Source: Rhodanobacteraceae bacterium
GTDB taxonomy: Bacteria > Acidobacteriota > Terriglobia > Terriglobales > Acidobacteriaceae
Reading direction: 5' to 3'
Assembly (NCBI GenBank): GCA_025350865.1
Contig: JANXWZ010000230.1
Location: 1-34,627, forward strand
DNA length: 34,627 nucleotides
Translations under genes and position numbers: made by a program
Part shown: positions 15,737-27,230 of the stretch, in pieces
How positions within the stretch are numbered: the first letter of the stretch is position 1
Layout of the letters: each line of letters opens with the position of its first letter
Notes under the pieces: model-generated
Seen by the model: the letters and a program-made list of their open reading frames with translations, nothing else
Database searches by the model: none
Told to the model about the DNA's origin: nothing

Positions 15737-15828
15737 GGATTCCGGGAAGTAGCGCTGGCCGAAACGATACACCTTATCGCGCGCTCCACCAAGGACTGTC
15801 ATAGGCTCAAGTGTACGAGGTGATACGG

Positions 15829-16656
15829 GTGAACCAGATCGTGTACGGGGAGAACCTTGCGGTGCTGCGCGGGATAGCTCCAGAGAGTGTGGACTTGATC
15901 TACATCGATCCGCCATTCAACACCGGCAAACGCCAGGTCCGGCCCCGGCTGAAGACCATCCGCGACCAAGCCGGTGACCGCACAGGCTTCGGCGGCGTAC
16001 GCTACCGGACCGAGAAGTCGACCGAGTCCCTCGCAGGCTATCGCGACCAGTTCGACGACTTCCTCGGCTTCCTCCATCCGCGCATGGTCGAAGCCCGGCG
16101 AGTGTTGAAACCCACCGGCTCGCTCTTCTTCCACATCGACCCGCGCGAGGTCCACTACTGCAAGGTAATGCTCGACGAGGTCTTTGGCAGAGAGTGCTTT
16201 CAGAACGAGATCATCTGGGCCTACGACTACGGTGCACGCGCCACCAAGCGCTGGCCCGCTAAACATGACAACATCCTCTGGTACACGCGCGACCCGGACC
16301 ACTACACCTTCGACCTCAACCAGACCGACCGAATCCCCTACATGGCTCCCGGCCTGGTCGGTGCAGAGAAAGCCGCCCGCGGCAAGACCCCGACCGACGT
16401 CTGGTGGCACACCATCGTCTCGCCCACAGGCAAGGAGAAGACCGGCTACGCCACGCAGAAGCCGCTTGGGATTCTGGAGCGCATCGTGCGCGTCCACTCG
16501 CGGCCCGGTGACCTCATCCTCGACTTCTTCGCTGGCAGCGGAACGACAGGTGTCGCTGCGGCAAAGAACGGGCGGGAGTTCCTGCTGGTAGACGAGAGTG
16601 CAGAGGCCATCACGGTGATGGAGAAGCGGTTGGGGCTGAAAGCAGTTGGAGCCTAG
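15829..16656 (+). CDS. Solitary beta-class DNA methyltransferase (N6-adenine or N4-cytosine)
   Basis: A 275-residue protein. I choose the GTG at 15829 because GAGGTGA ends 5 bases before it; in-frame GTGs at 15811 and 15820 have no ribosome site. Catalytic motif IV, YIDPPFNTG, comes first (about residue 30) and the SAM-binding motif I, FFAGSGTTGVAA, lies near the C-terminus, which is the beta-class order. The region between (about 45-200) is the likely target-recognition part. No restriction endonuclease or specificity gene is adjacent, so the enzyme looks orphan. It lacks the C-terminal DNA-binding extension of CcrM. Possible roles are gene regulation or protection against foreign nucleases; the recognition site cannot be read from sequence. 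Confidence 0.88.
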   Translation: MNQIVYGENLAVLRGIAPESVDLIYIDPPFNTGKRQVRPRLKTIRDQAGDRTGFGGVRYRTEKSTESLAGYRDQFDDFLGFLHPRMVEARRVLKPTGSLFFHIDPREVHYCKVMLDEVFGRECFQNEIIWAYDYGARATKRWPAKHDNILWYTRDPDHYTFDLNQTDRIPYMAPGLVGAEKAARGKTPTDVWWHTIVSPTGKEKTGYATQKPLGILERIVRVHSRPGDLILDFFAGSGTTGVAAAKNGREFLLVDESAEAITVMEKRLGLKAVGA

Positions 16657-18030: not shown

Positions 18031-18507
18031 ATGGGTAACAAGGTGTTGCGAGGTTTGGTAATGGTGCTGGCATTAGCCGGGATCGTGGTGAGTGTGCTGG
18101 CGCTGAAGGTTCACAACATGGACCCGGGCCTGGCGCCGCCATGTGCGGTCAGCGAGCACTGGGATTGCGGTGCGGTCAACCACTCGCGCTATGCGGTATT
18201 CCCGCCCAAGTCGTTCGACGAAGAGCCGGGGAGCAAGGCGCTCCACATTCCAGTTTCGGTCTTCGGCATCGTCGGATACGCGCTGATCGGGATTTTTGCG
18301 CTGCTGGGACGGTGGTGGATTGTGCTGCCGCTGGCTCAGTTTGGATTTTTCGCAGCCTGCCTTCTCAGTTACCTGGAGGCTTTCGTGTTGCAGAAGTGGT
18401 GCATCTACTGCGTCTGGTCGCAGAGTCTTGCGACTGCGGCACTGATTTTGACCGTGATTGCGCTCCTGCTGCGGCACCGCCAACGAGGATTGGTCCATGG
18501 GAATTAG
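18031..18507 (+). CDS. Vitamin K epoxide reductase (VKOR) family protein
   Basis: A 158-residue protein with four hydrophobic helices and the four cysteines expected of VKOR homologues: Cys38 and Cys46 (in the CAVSEHWDC segment of the first loop) and Cys124/Cys127 in the WCIYC active site. Bacterial VKOR reoxidises DsbA-like thiol oxidases and passes electrons to membrane quinone, usually menaquinone or ubiquinone. No fused thioredoxin domain is present, so a separate partner is expected. The start ATG (18031) has a weak ribosome site. The gene overlaps the next one by 11 bp, which suggests translational coupling with the MqnC-derived protein. Confidence 0.9.
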   Translation: MGNKVLRGLVMVLALAGIVVSVLALKVHNMDPGLAPPCAVSEHWDCGAVNHSRYAVFPPKSFDEEPGSKALHIPVSVFGIVGYALIGIFALLGRWWIVLPLAQFGFFAACLLSYLEAFVLQKWCIYCVWSQSLATAALILTVIALLLRHRQRGLVHGN

Positions 18508-19348
18508 CCGGGAACAGTCGCTGGACTGCTTCGCCAGCGACGATCTGATCGGGATTGGAATGGAAGCCGACGCCGTGCGCCGTCGGCTGCATCCTGAAGG
18601 CGTTGTCACCTACGGCATGTCGCGGGTCGTCGATTGCGGCGCTAAGGACATCTTGTCGGAGATTCAGGCGGCAGAAGACATGGGCGCGACCGGGGTTGTC
18701 CTTGCCGGTGGCTTTCAGGCCGTCGCTTCGGTGTTGTCGGAGGTCCGACAACGGTTCCCGAAGATGTGGCTGCAGGGACTGTCCACCGTGGAGATCGCAG
18801 CTTCAGGACTGCCAGCGCCCGAGGCGATTGCGCAGCTTCGGCAGATAGGGCTGGATTGCATCGGCGGTCCTGTTGCCGAGGTCCCGAACGATTCATGGGT
18901 TTCAATCCATCGCGCCGCTCACCTGACGGGCATGCGGACGACGGCTCGAGTTGTGTTTGGGGCTGGCGAGACTGCATCCGAACGACTGGCAGGCTTCGAA
19001 CAGATCCGGCTGCTCCAGGCGGAAACTGGGGGCTTCGACGCGGTGGCTCCGGTCAGCTTCCACGCGGCAGGTGGACGCGAACTGGATGAGACGACCGCAG
19101 TCGAATACCTGAAGACGCTGGCCGTAGCTCGGATTTACCTGGACACGATTGAAAATGTCGAGGCGGATTGGACGACGCAGGGGCTGAAGGTGCTGCAGAT
19201 GGGCTTGCGTTTTGGCGCGAACGACGTTGGCTCAGTCGCGGTGGAGCAGACCAAGGGTGCGACCGAAGAAGAACTGCGCCGTGTGATCCGCGACGCTGGC
19301 TTCCAGCCTGTGCAACGGGAGTTGGGATATCGGGCGATGCTTGTCTGA
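18497..19348 (+). CDS. MqnC-related (radical SAM family) protein lacking the Fe-S cluster cysteines
   Basis: A 283-residue protein starting at the ATG at 18497 behind GAGGAT. N-terminal ISREQSLDCFASDDLIGIGM and RRRLHPEGVVTY, and C-terminal TAVEYLKTLAVARIYLDTIE, DWTTQGLKVLQMGLRFGAND and VGSV, closely follow dehypoxanthine futalosine cyclase (MqnC), an enzyme of the futalosine route to menaquinone. However, the segment after VVTY that should hold the CxxxCxxC motif is missing: only Cys11, Cys47 and Cys121 remain, none in that arrangement. The GGGAE SAM-binding motif is changed to GGPVAE. The protein is about 80 residues shorter than usual. It therefore cannot be a normal radical SAM enzyme. Overlap with VKOR suggests a quinone-linked role, which is speculation. 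Confidence 0.72.
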   Translation: MGISREQSLDCFASDDLIGIGMEADAVRRRLHPEGVVTYGMSRVVDCGAKDILSEIQAAEDMGATGVVLAGGFQAVASVLSEVRQRFPKMWLQGLSTVEIAASGLPAPEAIAQLRQIGLDCIGGPVAEVPNDSWVSIHRAAHLTGMRTTARVVFGAGETASERLAGFEQIRLLQAETGGFDAVAPVSFHAAGGRELDETTAVEYLKTLAVARIYLDTIENVEADWTTQGLKVLQMGLRFGANDVGSVAVEQTKGATEEELRRVIRDAGFQPVQRELGYRAMLV

Positions 19349-19371: not shown

Positions 19372-19740
19372 ATGGAAACCATCAAGATGGGCAAGCGTGG
19401 GACTATCGTCATTCCGGCCAAGATGCGGAAGCTATTAGGGTTGAACGATGGATCGTTGCTGGTGACCGAGATTCGCGATGGTGGCATTAGCCTGAGACCT
19501 GCGGTGACGGTCGAGATTGAAATCTATACACCCGAGCGCAAGGCTGAGTTTTATTTGAACAACGCGGTATCGCAAGAAGACTGGGACAGGGCCGCTGCTG
19601 AAGTACGGGCGTTGGGGCTTGATCCCTTGACGATTCCTCACACCAACCCTGACACCCGATCCAGCCTGCCGACAAACCATGAGCTTGCAGAAATGTTCGA
19701 CCGTATTGAGGCAAAGCATCCGGCGCGCAGGTCTGCGTGA
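19372..19740 (+). CDS. AbrB/MazE-type (SpoVT-AbrB) antitoxin
   Basis: A 122-residue protein preceded by GAGG with 5-base spacing. The N-terminal swapped-hairpin domain is clear in IKMGKRGTIVIPAKMRKLLGL and DGSLLVTEIRDGGISLRP. The C-terminal part, rich in charged residues, should bind the toxin. Such proteins bind DNA as dimers and repress their own operon. The stop codon overlaps the GTG start of the PIN gene (GTGA), the classic antitoxin-first arrangement. The gene starts 23 bp after the MqnC-like gene, so it may be transcribed from further upstream. Confidence 0.85.
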   Translation: METIKMGKRGTIVIPAKMRKLLGLNDGSLLVTEIRDGGISLRPAVTVEIEIYTPERKAEFYLNNAVSQEDWDRAAAEVRALGLDPLTIPHTNPDTRSSLPTNHELAEMFDRIEAKHPARRSA

Positions 19741-20144
19741 CCAGGTTATTGCTCGTCTTTCTGGATTCGAACGTGGTCTACTCTGCAGCCCGAAGTCCCG
19801 TCAGCCCATTTCACCGCTTCTGGCATCTCCCGGGCCTCGAGTTGCTGACGTCGCCGCACTCGCTCGCTGAGTTACGCAACAATTACGAATCCGCCGACCA
19901 TCAGGAGCGGGCTGAAGGATTGATCTCCACAATGCGTGTTGTATCCGACAGGCCCGATCTTCGTCTGCCTGACGACGTCTTCCTTCCTGCAAAAGATGCT
20001 CCTATCTACCTTGCGGCGATGGGTGCCGGCGCCAGTTATTTGATTACAGGCGACAAAAATCACTTCGGTCCGTATTTCAATCAATCACGGGTGGGGCTGA
20101 CTGTGCTAGAACCTATGCCATTTCTGATGATGCTGGCACGGTAG
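19737..20144 (+). CDS. PIN-domain toxin paired with the AbrB-type antitoxin
   Basis: A 135-residue protein beginning at a GTG (19737) that overlaps the antitoxin stop by 4 bp. PIN features include VFLDSNVVYSAA (first acidic residue), SLAELRNN (second acidic position), LPAKDAPIYLAA (third acidic residue) and SYLITGDKNHFGP. It is the presumed RNase toxin of a VapBC-like pair. It differs in sequence from the PIN protein at 12105, so the two modules are not a recent duplication. The next gene, a glycosyltransferase, begins 43 bp downstream in the same direction. Confidence 0.83.
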   Translation: MTRLLLVFLDSNVVYSAARSPVSPFHRFWHLPGLELLTSPHSLAELRNNYESADHQERAEGLISTMRVVSDRPDLRLPDDVFLPAKDAPIYLAAMGAGASYLITGDKNHFGPYFNQSRVGLTVLEPMPFLMMLAR

Positions 20145-23408: not shown

Positions 23409-26400
23409 TTAGTGGATGTCGAACTGCTCGGGGTGGAGGCTGGGGTCAGATTTGACGAGGATGGTTTTGCCCACCATCTCTTCCATTTCCTGAAGCCAGC
23501 GGGAGGTGCCGGATTTAAGCTGCTTGACGACTTCGGGGTGGACGCGGAGCATGACGTCGCCGCGGTCGAGGTGCTTCTGCATCTTGCGCATCTCGATATA
23601 GATGTCGTTGCAGACCGTGACGGGCGACTTGGTCATGCCGGTTCCCTGGCAGACGCCACAGGTGGTGGAGAGGGTGCGCTCGAGCGACTGCTTGACGCGC
23701 TTGCGGGTGATGGCGACGAGGCCGAAGTCGTTGAAAGGGAGAACCTTCGACGGGGCGCGGTCGGACTTCAACTCGTCTTCGAGCGCGGCCATGACCTTGT
23801 TGCGGTTCTTGCGCTCGTCCATGTCGATGAAGTCGATGATGATGATGCCGCCGAGATCGCGCAGACGAATCTGGCGGACGATCTCGGGGATGGCGTCGAG
23901 GTTGGTCTTGACGATGGTGTCTTCGAGGCGGGCCGTCTTGCCGACGAACTTGCCGGTGTTGATGTCGATGGCGACCAGGGCTTCGGTCTGGTTGATGACG
24001 ATGGAGCCGCCGGATTTGAGCCAGACCTTGGAGCGCAGGGCCTTGTTGATCTCCTCGGTGATGCCGAACTGCTCGAACAGCGGCGTTTCCTTGGTGTAGA
24101 GCTTGACGCGGCGGATGAGCGAGGGCTGGAAGCGCTGCAGGAAGCGGAGGACCTGCTCGTACTGGGCTTCGGTGTCGACCCAGATGGCGGAGAAGTTGTC
24201 CGTGACCTGATCGCGGAGGACGCGCTCGACGAGGTTGAGGTCGTGATAGATGAGAGCGGGCGACTTGCTGGACTCGGAGCGGGACTTGATGTCGGCCCAG
24301 AGGTTGAGCAGGAAGCGGAGGTCGCTGCGAAGCTCTTCTTCACTGGCTCCGGAGGCGGCGGTGCGGACGATGAAGCCGCCGGAGGCTTCACCCTTTTCGG
24401 AGAGCAGGATTTCTTTCAGGCGGCGGCGCTCCCCATCGGACTCGATCTTGCGCGAGACGCCGATGTGGTTGACGGTCGGCATGAAGACCAGGAAGCGGCC
24501 CGGGAGGGCGATGTGCGAGGTGATGCGTGCGCCCTTCTTGGCGATGGGCTCCTTGGCGATCTGGCAGAGAAGCTCCTGGCCGGGCTTGAGCAGGTCGGAG
24601 ATGGCTGGCAGGTTGGTGGACTGCATAGACTGGCGTCCGCCGGAGCGGTGGTGGTCTCCACCGCCGCCGCCTGTGGAGCGGGCGCGCTCGCCAGTGCCAC
24701 GGTCGCGGTCGCGGCGATTGCGGTCGCCACGGCGGCCATCGCGACGGTTGTCGCGGCCACGATCACGACGGGGTTCGCGGGGCTCGCCCTGGGGGGCAGC
24801 GGCGCGGTCGCCGGAGGCTTCGGAGCGGGGTTCAGCGGAGTCGCCGAGGAAAGGTGCGCGGTCGGATTCTTCCTCGTGCTCGCTTCCCTCTTCCATGTTG
24901 TATTCGGGCTGGTCGGATTCCTCGTCCTCGAACTCCTCGGAGTCTGAGGATTCGAGAGAGTCGTCCTGATCTTCTTCGAGGAAGTCCTCCTCAAAGTCGT
25001 CCTCTTCTTCGTCGATGGAAACCTCGGTGCGGGTGAGGTGGTCGATGCTCATCTCGCGGAGCATGGTGCCGAGGTCGGCGGCGTTCTCGAGGGTTTCGAG
25101 CTCCTGCGACTCGTCGTAGCGGGCGTGCAGGGTGGGCAGAGCGGCGGGTTCTTCCTCGTCGTCGAGCATCTCTTCTTCGAGGACGCCGGAGCCGGGCGCG
25201 AACCAGGGTACCGATTGGTCGGGCGCTGCTGCATCGGCTGCTACTGAGACCGAGGAGTGCTCCTGCCCTTGCGCGGAGGAGGAGGGAGCGACGAGGTCCT
25301 GGGTGATGAGCGCGGGCGACTCGGTGTGCATGTCGCCGGAGGCGAAGACCGAGGTGAGTTCGTGGGTGGCGTCGTCGTGAGCGATTGGCTCGGCCTGGTG
25401 GGTGGGCTCGGAAGCGGCGGCGACGGGTTCGGGGGTCTGCTCTCCCTCGAAGACCTCTTCCTCGATTACTTCTTCCTCGATCACTTCTTCTTCGAGGACG
25501 GGGGCGGACTGGCGGAACTCGCTTGGGGCGACGGGGTCTACGCGGTAGGACGCGGAGGCCTCGGACGGCTCGTACTCATGCTCGACTTCGACGACTGGCT
25601 CAGGGGCGTCGATTGCGGCTTCTACGGGAACGTCTACCGGTGCGGCGTGTACTGCTTCTACTGGCTGCGCTTCGGCTTCGGTCGCGCCTGCTTCATGCTC
25701 GACCGGCATGGGCGGAGGAGGCACGAAGGTGCTGTGGATGGGTGCCACTTCCTGTGCCGGGGCGTGGACCAGGGGTTCGGCAATGGGGGCGTAGACCGCT
25801 TCCGGTGCGGCTGCCTGTGCCGTTGGCTCGGCGTAGGCGGGGCGCTGTTCACGCGGGGACTCATTGCGGCGGGGGCGGTCGCCGCGGTCACCACGGTCGT
25901 TGCGGTCGTTGCGCTGACCGCGCTCTTCGCGGCGCGGGGCTTCGGAACGGCCGGAGCCGGATGCAGGGCGGGGGCGAATGGTCTCCCCGGGGAGGACGAG
26001 ACCGCCGTCCCAGCCGGCGGCTACAAACTCGGAGGGAGCTGCGGGGGCGGCTGGCGCGGTGTGCGAGGCTGCGGCAGGGGTTTCGGACGGGGCGCGGTAC
26101 TTGGCGAGCGACTCGCCGGGCAGGATGATAGGTTCGAGGGGAGCGTCGCCTGCGTCGGCGGTCGATCCGTAGGCGGGGTAGGCATTTTCGACTGGACCGG
26201 AGTCACGCGGGGTGCGGGGGCTGCGATCTCCACGGTCGCCACGGGTGCGGTCGCCACGGCCACCGCGGTCGCTGCGTCCGCCTCGGTCTCCACGGTCGTT
26301 GCGGGGGGCGGGGGCCTCCGGGGCCGGGGTTGCGGCGGAGGCGTCGAAGTCATGCACCGGGTACTCATCATCGGCGCAGGAGTCGTAGATGGGGCCAGTG

Positions 26401-27161
26401 GGTTCGGCTACAGGTGCGGCGGATTCCTGGACGGGCTGGCCGGGTGTACGCTCTGCCCCGCGATTGCCACGGCGTCCGCGACGCCCGCGCCAGCGGCGGC
26501 TGCCGTCGGCTCCGGGAGCGCCTTCGCCAAGCTCACCGGCTTCGGCGGCGGGTGGGGCACCGAGAATGGATTCGGTGGGAGGCGCGGGGCGGTCTATTGC
26601 CGGGCGATCTCCGGCGGGGCGGTCACGGCGGGGTGAGCCGTCGGAGTTGTTGCGGTCGCGGCGATTGCGTCCGCCACGGCGGTTGCCGCGTTCGGAGTCG
26701 GGTACGGGGCGGGCGGGGTCGAGGCTGGAGACGGCGGCGGTAAAGAGTTCGTCGTCGGAGGGCTCACGGTAGACGGGCTCGGCGGTCTGGTCGATGGTGC
26801 GGGGCTGGCGGTTGCGGTCGCCACGGTCATTTCGTCCGCCACGGTCGCCGCGGTCGGTGCGTCCGCCTTCGTGGGGTGCGCGGCTGGAGTCACCGGAGCC
26901 GGAGACGGACTCAAATTCGCCCGGCTCGCCGACTTCTTCCATGAAGTCGGTGATGTAGAGGAAGGCGTCGCGGTCGAGGCCGATGTCGACAAAGGACGAC
27001 TGCATTCCTGGGAGGACGCGGGTTACTTTGCCGTTGTAGATGGATCCGGCGAGGGTGTATTCGTTCTCGCGCTCATAATAAATTTCGGTAAGTGCTTCGT
27101 TTTCAACGATTGCCAGCCGCGTCTCGTGCGGCGTGGAAGAGATGTAGATTTCCTTCGACAT
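23409..27161 (-). CDS. rne: RNase E/G with a very large disordered insertion in the S1 domain
   Basis: A 1250-residue ribonuclease starting MSKEIYISSTPHETRLAIVE. Residues about 37-75 are the first part of the S1 RNA-binding domain (GSIYNGKVTRVLPGMQSSFV). The S1 fold resumes near residue 850 (ISDLLKPGQELLCQIAKEPI) and leads into the 5'-sensor and DNase I-like domains. Catalytic acids are in VAIDINTG and IIIDFIDMDERK, and the Zn-link is TTCGVCQGTG. The C-terminus ends like RNase G, with no scaffold tail. Between lie about 775 low-complexity residues: Arg/Asp/Gly-rich blocks, Ala/Pro stretches and very acidic runs. The enzyme initiates mRNA decay and rRNA processing by 5'-end-dependent cleavage. 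The insertion may replace the usual C-terminal scaffold. Confidence 0.93.
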   Translation of the reverse strand: MSKEIYISSTPHETRLAIVENEALTEIYYERENEYTLAGSIYNGKVTRVLPGMQSSFVDIGLDRDAFLYITDFMEEVGEPGEFESVSGSGDSSRAPHEGGRTDRGDRGGRNDRGDRNRQPRTIDQTAEPVYREPSDDELFTAAVSSLDPARPVPDSERGNRRGGRNRRDRNNSDGSPRRDRPAGDRPAIDRPAPPTESILGAPPAAEAGELGEGAPGADGSRRWRGRRGRRGNRGAERTPGQPVQESAAPVAEPTGPIYDSCADDEYPVHDFDASAATPAPEAPAPRNDRGDRGGRSDRGGRGDRTRGDRGDRSPRTPRDSGPVENAYPAYGSTADAGDAPLEPIILPGESLAKYRAPSETPAAASHTAPAAPAAPSEFVAAGWDGGLVLPGETIRPRPASGSGRSEAPRREERGQRNDRNDRGDRGDRPRRNESPREQRPAYAEPTAQAAAPEAVYAPIAEPLVHAPAQEVAPIHSTFVPPPPMPVEHEAGATEAEAQPVEAVHAAPVDVPVEAAIDAPEPVVEVEHEYEPSEASASYRVDPVAPSEFRQSAPVLEEEVIEEEVIEEEVFEGEQTPEPVAAASEPTHQAEPIAHDDATHELTSVFASGDMHTESPALITQDLVAPSSSAQGQEHSSVSVAADAAAPDQSVPWFAPGSGVLEEEMLDDEEEPAALPTLHARYDESQELETLENAADLGTMLREMSIDHLTRTEVSIDEEEDDFEEDFLEEDQDDSLESSDSEEFEDEESDQPEYNMEEGSEHEEESDRAPFLGDSAEPRSEASGDRAAAPQGEPREPRRDRGRDNRRDGRRGDRNRRDRDRGTGERARSTGGGGGDHHRSGGRQSMQSTNLPAISDLLKPGQELLCQIAKEPIAKKGARITSHIALPGRFLVFMPTVNHIGVSRKIESDGERRRLKEILLSEKGEASGGFIVRTAASGASEEELRSDLRFLLNLWADIKSRSESSKSPALIYHDLNLVERVLRDQVTDNFSAIWVDTEAQYEQVLRFLQRFQPSLIRRVKLYTKETPLFEQFGITEEINKALRSKVWLKSGGSIVINQTEALVAIDINTGKFVGKTARLEDTIVKTNLDAIPEIVRQIRLRDLGGIIIIDFIDMDERKNRNKVMAALEDELKSDRAPSKVLPFNDFGLVAITRKRVKQSLERTLSTTCGVCQGTGMTKSPVTVCNDIYIEMRKMQKHLDRGDVMLRVHPEVVKQLKSGTSRWLQEMEEMVGKTILVKSDPSLHPEQFDIH

Positions 27162-27230
27162 TCCAGTCTGCTCTTTCTCCCCTGCCGGCGTGGGCCGGAT
27201 CAGGAGAAGCAGGCAAGGCACGAATTCGGG

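Follow-up and report, generated by a model that had tools for sequence, protein, structure and literature searches.

A widespread MqnC orthologue without the CxxxCxxC motif and its divergent MqnC-like companion in soil Acidobacteria

MqnC, cyclic dehypoxanthine futalosine synthase (TIGR03699), cyclises dehypoxanthine futalosine by radical SAM chemistry (PMC8210684), and MqnE, aminofutalosine synthase (PDB 6xi9 and 6xig), is an intact radical SAM enzyme with the fold considered here. Cofactor pathways also contain pseudoenzymes, in which a non-catalytic relative stands beside a catalytic one; plant PDX1.2 aids its paralogues in vitamin B6 synthesis (PMC5897740). The protein described here is encoded in a window of 34,627 nt, the whole stretch of DNA that was analysed. 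It resembles MqnC in its orthologous locus, its N-terminal leader and its C-terminal CofH_C region, and differs from it in the loss of CxxxCxxC and in a changed GGGAE motif. The present case differs from PDX1.2: here it is the presumed non-catalytic protein that occupies the ancestral locus, the presumed active relative is the divergent one, and shortened mini-forms exist; aid to a paralogue would be only a possibility here. A literature search, judged by title and abstract opening, found no paper on an MqnC pseudoenzyme.

The MqnC locus and its Cys-less product

We refer to the MqnC orthologue at the window locus as MqnC1, to a divergent MqnC-like protein encoded elsewhere as MqnC2, and to forms without CxxxCxxC as Cys-less, scattered cysteines remaining in them. 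The relevant features of the window are as follows.

18031..18507, + strand: gene for a VKOR-family membrane protein, the upstream neighbour (Pfam PF07884, 73.5 bits; 158 aa)
18485..18489, + strand: GAGGA, likely ribosome-binding site, 7 nt before the ATG at 18497 (read from the sequence)
18497..19348, + strand: Cys-less MqnC1 gene, an MqnC orthologue without CxxxCxxC (852 bp; 283 aa plus stop)
18497..18613, + strand: N-terminal leader, residues 1–39, near-unchanged from intact MqnC1 (47 Cys-less sequences)
18641..18646, + strand: site of the missing CxxxCxxC loop, about residues 49–50 (alignments with intact MqnC1)
18860..18883, + strand: altered GGGAE motif, IGGPVAEV (alignment with intact relatives)
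19085..19345, + strand: C-terminal CofH_C segment, residues 197–283 (Pfam PF19288, 57.3 bits)

The top NCBIfam match of the window protein is TIGR03699 (MqnC; 175.2 bits, E 1.6e-51), which lies under the curated cut-off of 428.1 and matches best from profile position 75 onwards. CofH_C is the sole Pfam match, no radical SAM domain being found at E up to 0.001. Residues 1–39 are near-perfect MqnC, after which intact relatives enter the CxxxCxxC loop that is missing here. The motif is absent from the window protein, and from the first 90 residues of all 47 Cys-less sequences (some of them identical); the GGGAE of intact relatives aligns with GGPVAE, and C11, C47 and C121 are the only cysteines. 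These results bear out the initial annotation, which had noted an MqnC-like C-terminal half with CxxxCxxC gone, GGGAE altered and three cysteines left, an intact ribosome site and an 11-bp overlap with the VKOR open reading frame.

The window protein is modelled with confidence (pLDDT 90.1, pTM 0.88). Among solved structures the model comes closest to MqnE 6xi9 (VIA-align Z 30.8, rmsd 2.7, 280 residues aligned), and loss of the cluster loop is thus predicted to leave the fold in place. On PF19288 and the 6xi9 match, the protein belongs to the CofH/MqnC/MqnE superfamily, which combines a CofH_C domain with a radical-SAM-type barrel. The predicted structure of intact MqnC1 reached a pLDDT of 60.5. 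Unlike this protein, MqnE is an intact radical SAM enzyme, and the window genome has its own intact MqnE (L002; 495 bits, above its cut-off).

The order methyltransferase, phosphoesterase, VKOR, MqnC1, glycosyltransferase is found in part in the window and in loci L045, L069 and L050, and the Cys-less gene occupies the same locus as the intact MqnC of relatives. Other genes of the window include an adenine-specific DNA methyltransferase, distantly CcrM-like (15811–16656), with a similar gene near VKOR–MqnC1 in L045 and L050; an AbrB/MazE-like antitoxin gene and, overlapping it, a gene whose PIN-domain match is weak and under the Pfam cut-off (19372–20144), together likely a toxin–antitoxin pair between the MqnC1 and glycosyltransferase genes; and, on the minus strand, a 1270-aa frame (23409–27221) for a Ribonuclease E/G-family protein whose catalytic domain lies near the C-terminus.

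Distribution of MqnC1 and MqnC2

Full-length Cys-less MqnC1 is present in 38 of 62 genomes of the genus, each copy an open frame without a stop codon; because so many genomes share it, the feature is not due to chance. Intact MqnC1 above the cut-off occurs in 21 of the 62 and MqnC2 in 40, called at 372 bits or more against the MqnC2 of the window genome; the remaining 12 matches, at 206–215 bits, are to intact MqnC1. The Cys-less form accompanies MqnC2 in 38 of these 40 genomes, and only one of the 21 genomes with intact MqnC1 (G036) also has MqnC2. Among the less complete genomes, G004 (63%) has MqnC2 with no MqnC1 found, G084 (63%) yielded neither, and G027 (73%) has only an intact-type C-terminal piece of MqnC1, 96% identical to that of the intact G010 over 98 residues; a first search had taken this piece for a stop-bearing copy, and it lies instead beside a run of N.

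The pairing of Cys-less MqnC1 with MqnC2 recurs in a second genus, g22, and in single genomes of two more genera. Among the 28 g22 genomes, 11 have intact MqnC1, with an intact piece at a contig end in G323, and 13 have the Cys-less form (ten full-length, two interrupted by N in G306 and G307, and a short one in G305); MqnC2 accompanies 12 of these 13. It was called in 13 g22 genomes, in G311, G312, G314 and G319 by model score alone. One g22 genome has the Cys-less form with no MqnC2 found (G316, 93% complete) and one has MqnC2 with no MqnC1 found (G317, 84% complete). A sample of 250 genomes of the class contained MqnC2 in 22: 18 of the genus, G212 of g22, and three outside both genera, namely G156 with Cys-less MqnC1, G285 with intact MqnC1 and G239 with a mini-form. 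The genomes without MqnC2 examined for MqnC1 in this sample were eleven further ones of the family, and all 11 had the intact gene. Across all 56 genomes with MqnC2, 52 are Cys-less, 2 intact and 2 without a detected MqnC1; of the scored genomes without MqnC2, 43 are intact (20 of the genus, 12 of g22 with G323, 11 others) and 1 is Cys-less. G027, G084, G315 (fragment only) and G325 were left unscored in these counts, and L065, with a broken frame and CxxxCxxC in its upstream piece, was excluded from the Cys-less alignment.

The initial annotation had proposed looking for a second, intact MqnC in the genome, and MqnC2 (L003) is such an MqnC-like gene, with CxxxCxxC, a motif present in all 47 MqnC2 sequences examined. 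MqnC is the best of nine models that it matches (314.5 bits, below the cut-off of 428.1; 212 for MqnE). MqnC2 is probably the working cyclase. In the window genome it follows a UbiA-like prenyltransferase gene (TIGR01475 above cut-off, MqnP models matched below theirs). In G017, G022 and G075 a PF02621 gene lies at 0.5–0.9 kb from MqnC2, and in G074 at a distance of about 4 kb; it gave no NCBIfam match, and we take its motif to be MqnD-like. Such pathway neighbours are not general: among 14 MqnC2 loci examined, UbiA was seen at one and a PF02621 gene at three. PF02621, a family that covers MqnA and MqnD (PMC3914697), was matched in 61 of the 62 genus genomes (twice in 57, three times in two, once in two) and not in G019 (74% complete). 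MenB was found in none of the 62 at E up to 1e-80, a search positive in 7 of 14 controls. With PF02621 near-universal and MenB not found, the genus appears to use the futalosine pathway.

How often the Cys-less form arose was approached with marker trees, in which intact and Cys-less genomes are interleaved. Intact and Cys-less states change 8 times on the MqnE tree, 4 of them forced by starred branches, 6 times on the rpoB tree (2 forced), and 7 times on the two joined (4 forced), where one split was rejected (p-AU 2e-5). The MqnC1 tree places all 26 intact copies in one clade, where long branches meet. Repeated loss, transfer of the locus, or both are possible origins. The MqnC2 tree mixes genera, as if MqnC2 had moved horizontally. 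Supported branches provide only 4 independent contrasts, concordant in 3.9 on average (p 0.125), a number too small to reach significance.

Selection, conserved residues and shortened forms

The Cys-less protein is under purifying selection and is protected in many soil Acidobacteria. Its dN/dS, one of the checks that the initial annotation had suggested, is 0.164 (bootstrap 0.143–0.188; Nei–Gojobori, 8 disjoint pairs, 2513 codons). By region, over 12 pairs, the values are 0.10 for the leader, 0.25 for the middle and 0.11 for the C-terminus, compared with 0.03–0.05 in the regions of intact MqnC1 (7 pairs); pooled, the Cys-less value is about three times the intact one (0.152 versus 0.046). Among the 45 closest pairs listed, dN/dS reaches 0.93, and some distant pairs give 0.6–0.9; the high values come from pairs joining distant species, in which we think synonymous distance is unreliable. 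As a homologue without catalytic residues that is maintained by purifying selection in many species, Cys-less MqnC1 has, at the level of sequence, the properties expected of a pseudoenzyme.

Conservation was measured at the 273 positions invariant in 24 intact MqnC1 sequences, a set that excludes G036 and G285. In the 47 Cys-less sequences, 91–93% of these positions are kept in residues 1–40, 5–16% in 41–80, 37% in 161–180, 40% in 241–260, 80% in 261–300, 33% in 301–320 and 87% in 321–340. Among the positions kept in 10% of the sequences or fewer are the three cysteines, G163, G164, E166, N244–T245 and N308–V310 (intact numbering). Across 34 aligned Cys-less sequences the leader is strongly conserved, its C11 is the only nearly invariant cysteine, and there are invariant His, Asp and Arg positions; the conserved positions are largely inherited from intact MqnC1. 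The comparison did not support a division in which MqnC2 would be missing exactly the positions retained by the Cys-less form; sharing of the retained positions is no higher with MqnC2 than it is with MqnE (0.46 and 0.52).

Two genomes carry mini-forms in which the leader is joined to the C-terminal part and most of the barrel is deleted: G305 of g22 (178 aa) and G239 of another family (162 aa), both retaining the CofH_C segment. The G305 locus has several neighbour genes in common with the intact MqnC1 locus L034, and the G239 locus one upstream gene in common with the intact loci L105 and L112. Proteins reduced to leader plus C-terminus argue against a ligand-binding barrel, and are the strongest pointer that the selected parts of Cys-less MqnC1 would be the leader and C-terminus rather than the pocket.

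What the Cys-less protein may do

We favour, with a probability of about 60%, the reading that Cys-less MqnC1 is a pseudoenzyme whose catalytic task passed to MqnC2 and which persists because of a protein–protein role. Divergent MqnC2 would have taken over the radical cyclisation of dehypoxanthine futalosine; MqnC1 would then have lost its [4Fe–4S] loop and GGGAE site and been kept for a second job, in which its N-terminal leader and its C-terminal helices would most likely dock to another protein, for example a futalosine-pathway enzyme. What is observed in support is the motif loss, the conservation, the purifying selection, the co-occurrence with MqnC2 and the shortening in two genomes. Since selection maintains a protein that has lost its catalytic site, a second job is probable; the odds of docking as the retained role are about even, and a futalosine-pathway enzyme as the docking partner is a tentative choice. 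More speculative still, MqnC2 and Cys-less MqnC1 might form a two-component dehypoxanthine futalosine cyclase in which the latter is a non-catalytic subunit, either required or stimulating, or Cys-less MqnC1 might act as a scaffold for futalosine enzymes; leader plus C-terminal helices would be its minimal working unit, and the arrangement would have had several origins, or been passed on by transfer, with the gain of MqnC2. The Cys-less genome in which no MqnC2 was found (G316), and the two MqnC2 genomes in which no MqnC1 was found (G317 and G004), count against the favoured reading.

The retained fold could instead serve another chemistry or bind a ligand, and to either we give a low probability, of about the same size. 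Re-use of the barrel for a non-radical reaction would fit the alignment of the confident model to nearly all of the MqnE fold and the invariant His, Asp and Arg positions, but these conserved positions are largely an inheritance from intact MqnC1, the one nearly invariant cysteine is C11 of the leader, and two genomes have dispensed with most of the barrel while keeping leader and C-terminus. The same deletion weakens the initial annotation's suggestion of a quinone or precursor sensor: a role in sensing or carrying a quinone or an intermediate of the futalosine pathway agrees with the retained CofH_C half and with the PF02621 and MqnE genes kept in the genomes, yet the mini-forms, as aligned, could hardly form a barrel pocket, and intact-invariant positions are poorly kept in segments 241–260 and 301–320.

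Decay of a displaced gene is disfavoured and clearly less probable than either. Progressive deletions, a dN/dS above that of intact MqnC1 and the g22 genome G317 speak for it; the 38 stop-free copies of the genus, a dN/dS whose upper bound is 0.188 and the strongly conserved leader speak against it, and the apparent frame breaks in G306 and G307 both fall on runs of N. The initial annotation's view that a quinone-pathway fold is kept without radical SAM motifs, and not simply decaying, is thereby upheld. That annotation would have read intact orthologues as the mark of a local pseudogene; such orthologues occur, but many genomes carry the Cys-less form and purifying selection acts on it. Least probable is a partnership with the VKOR protein in disulfide formation. 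For 35 of the 38 Cys-less copies in the genus the VKOR gene is found upstream in the same orientation, with an overlap in three genomes only (G000, G006 and G020), but it stands equally beside intact MqnC1 (20 of 21 copies; in the rest it was not seen in the flank examined), so it can hardly be a dedicated partner. In 26 of the 35 the gap is 400–753 bp, and VKOR was not seen in the flanking DNA examined of the Cys-less G156, G212, G239 and G305, nor in that of G285. The linkage is probably ancestral rather than functional; of the two features that the initial annotation proposed to test in orthologues, the cysteine loss is widespread and the VKOR pairing is not specific to the Cys-less form.

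The finding is real and wider than the initial annotation could show: a probable MqnC pseudoenzyme is conserved across genomes and occurs together with an MqnC-like protein as its likely substitute. The genomes offer a natural series that starts at the intact radical SAM enzyme, passes by way of the genomes that have both copies (G036, G285) to the loop-deleted barrel and ends in the leader-plus-C-terminus mini-protein, and it comes with a candidate catalytic replacement in MqnC2. This would imply a non-catalytic role of MqnC that MqnC2 does not supply, and the presence of an MqnC orthologue alone does not locate cyclase activity.

Some further observations concern the wider family. G325 had been a candidate for intact MqnC1 and MqnC2 in tandem and was dropped: its two adjacent MqnC/MqnE-family radical SAM genes (L398, 4723–8484) are other family members, not MqnC1 orthologues and not close to MqnC2. 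In family f2 of the same order (G037–G050), 12 of 14 genomes gave one weak MqnC-family match to the window protein and 2 none; their menaquinone route may differ. In G036, the MqnC1 (L036) keeps CxxxCxxC with changed flanking residues (about 44–75), perhaps an early stage of drift.
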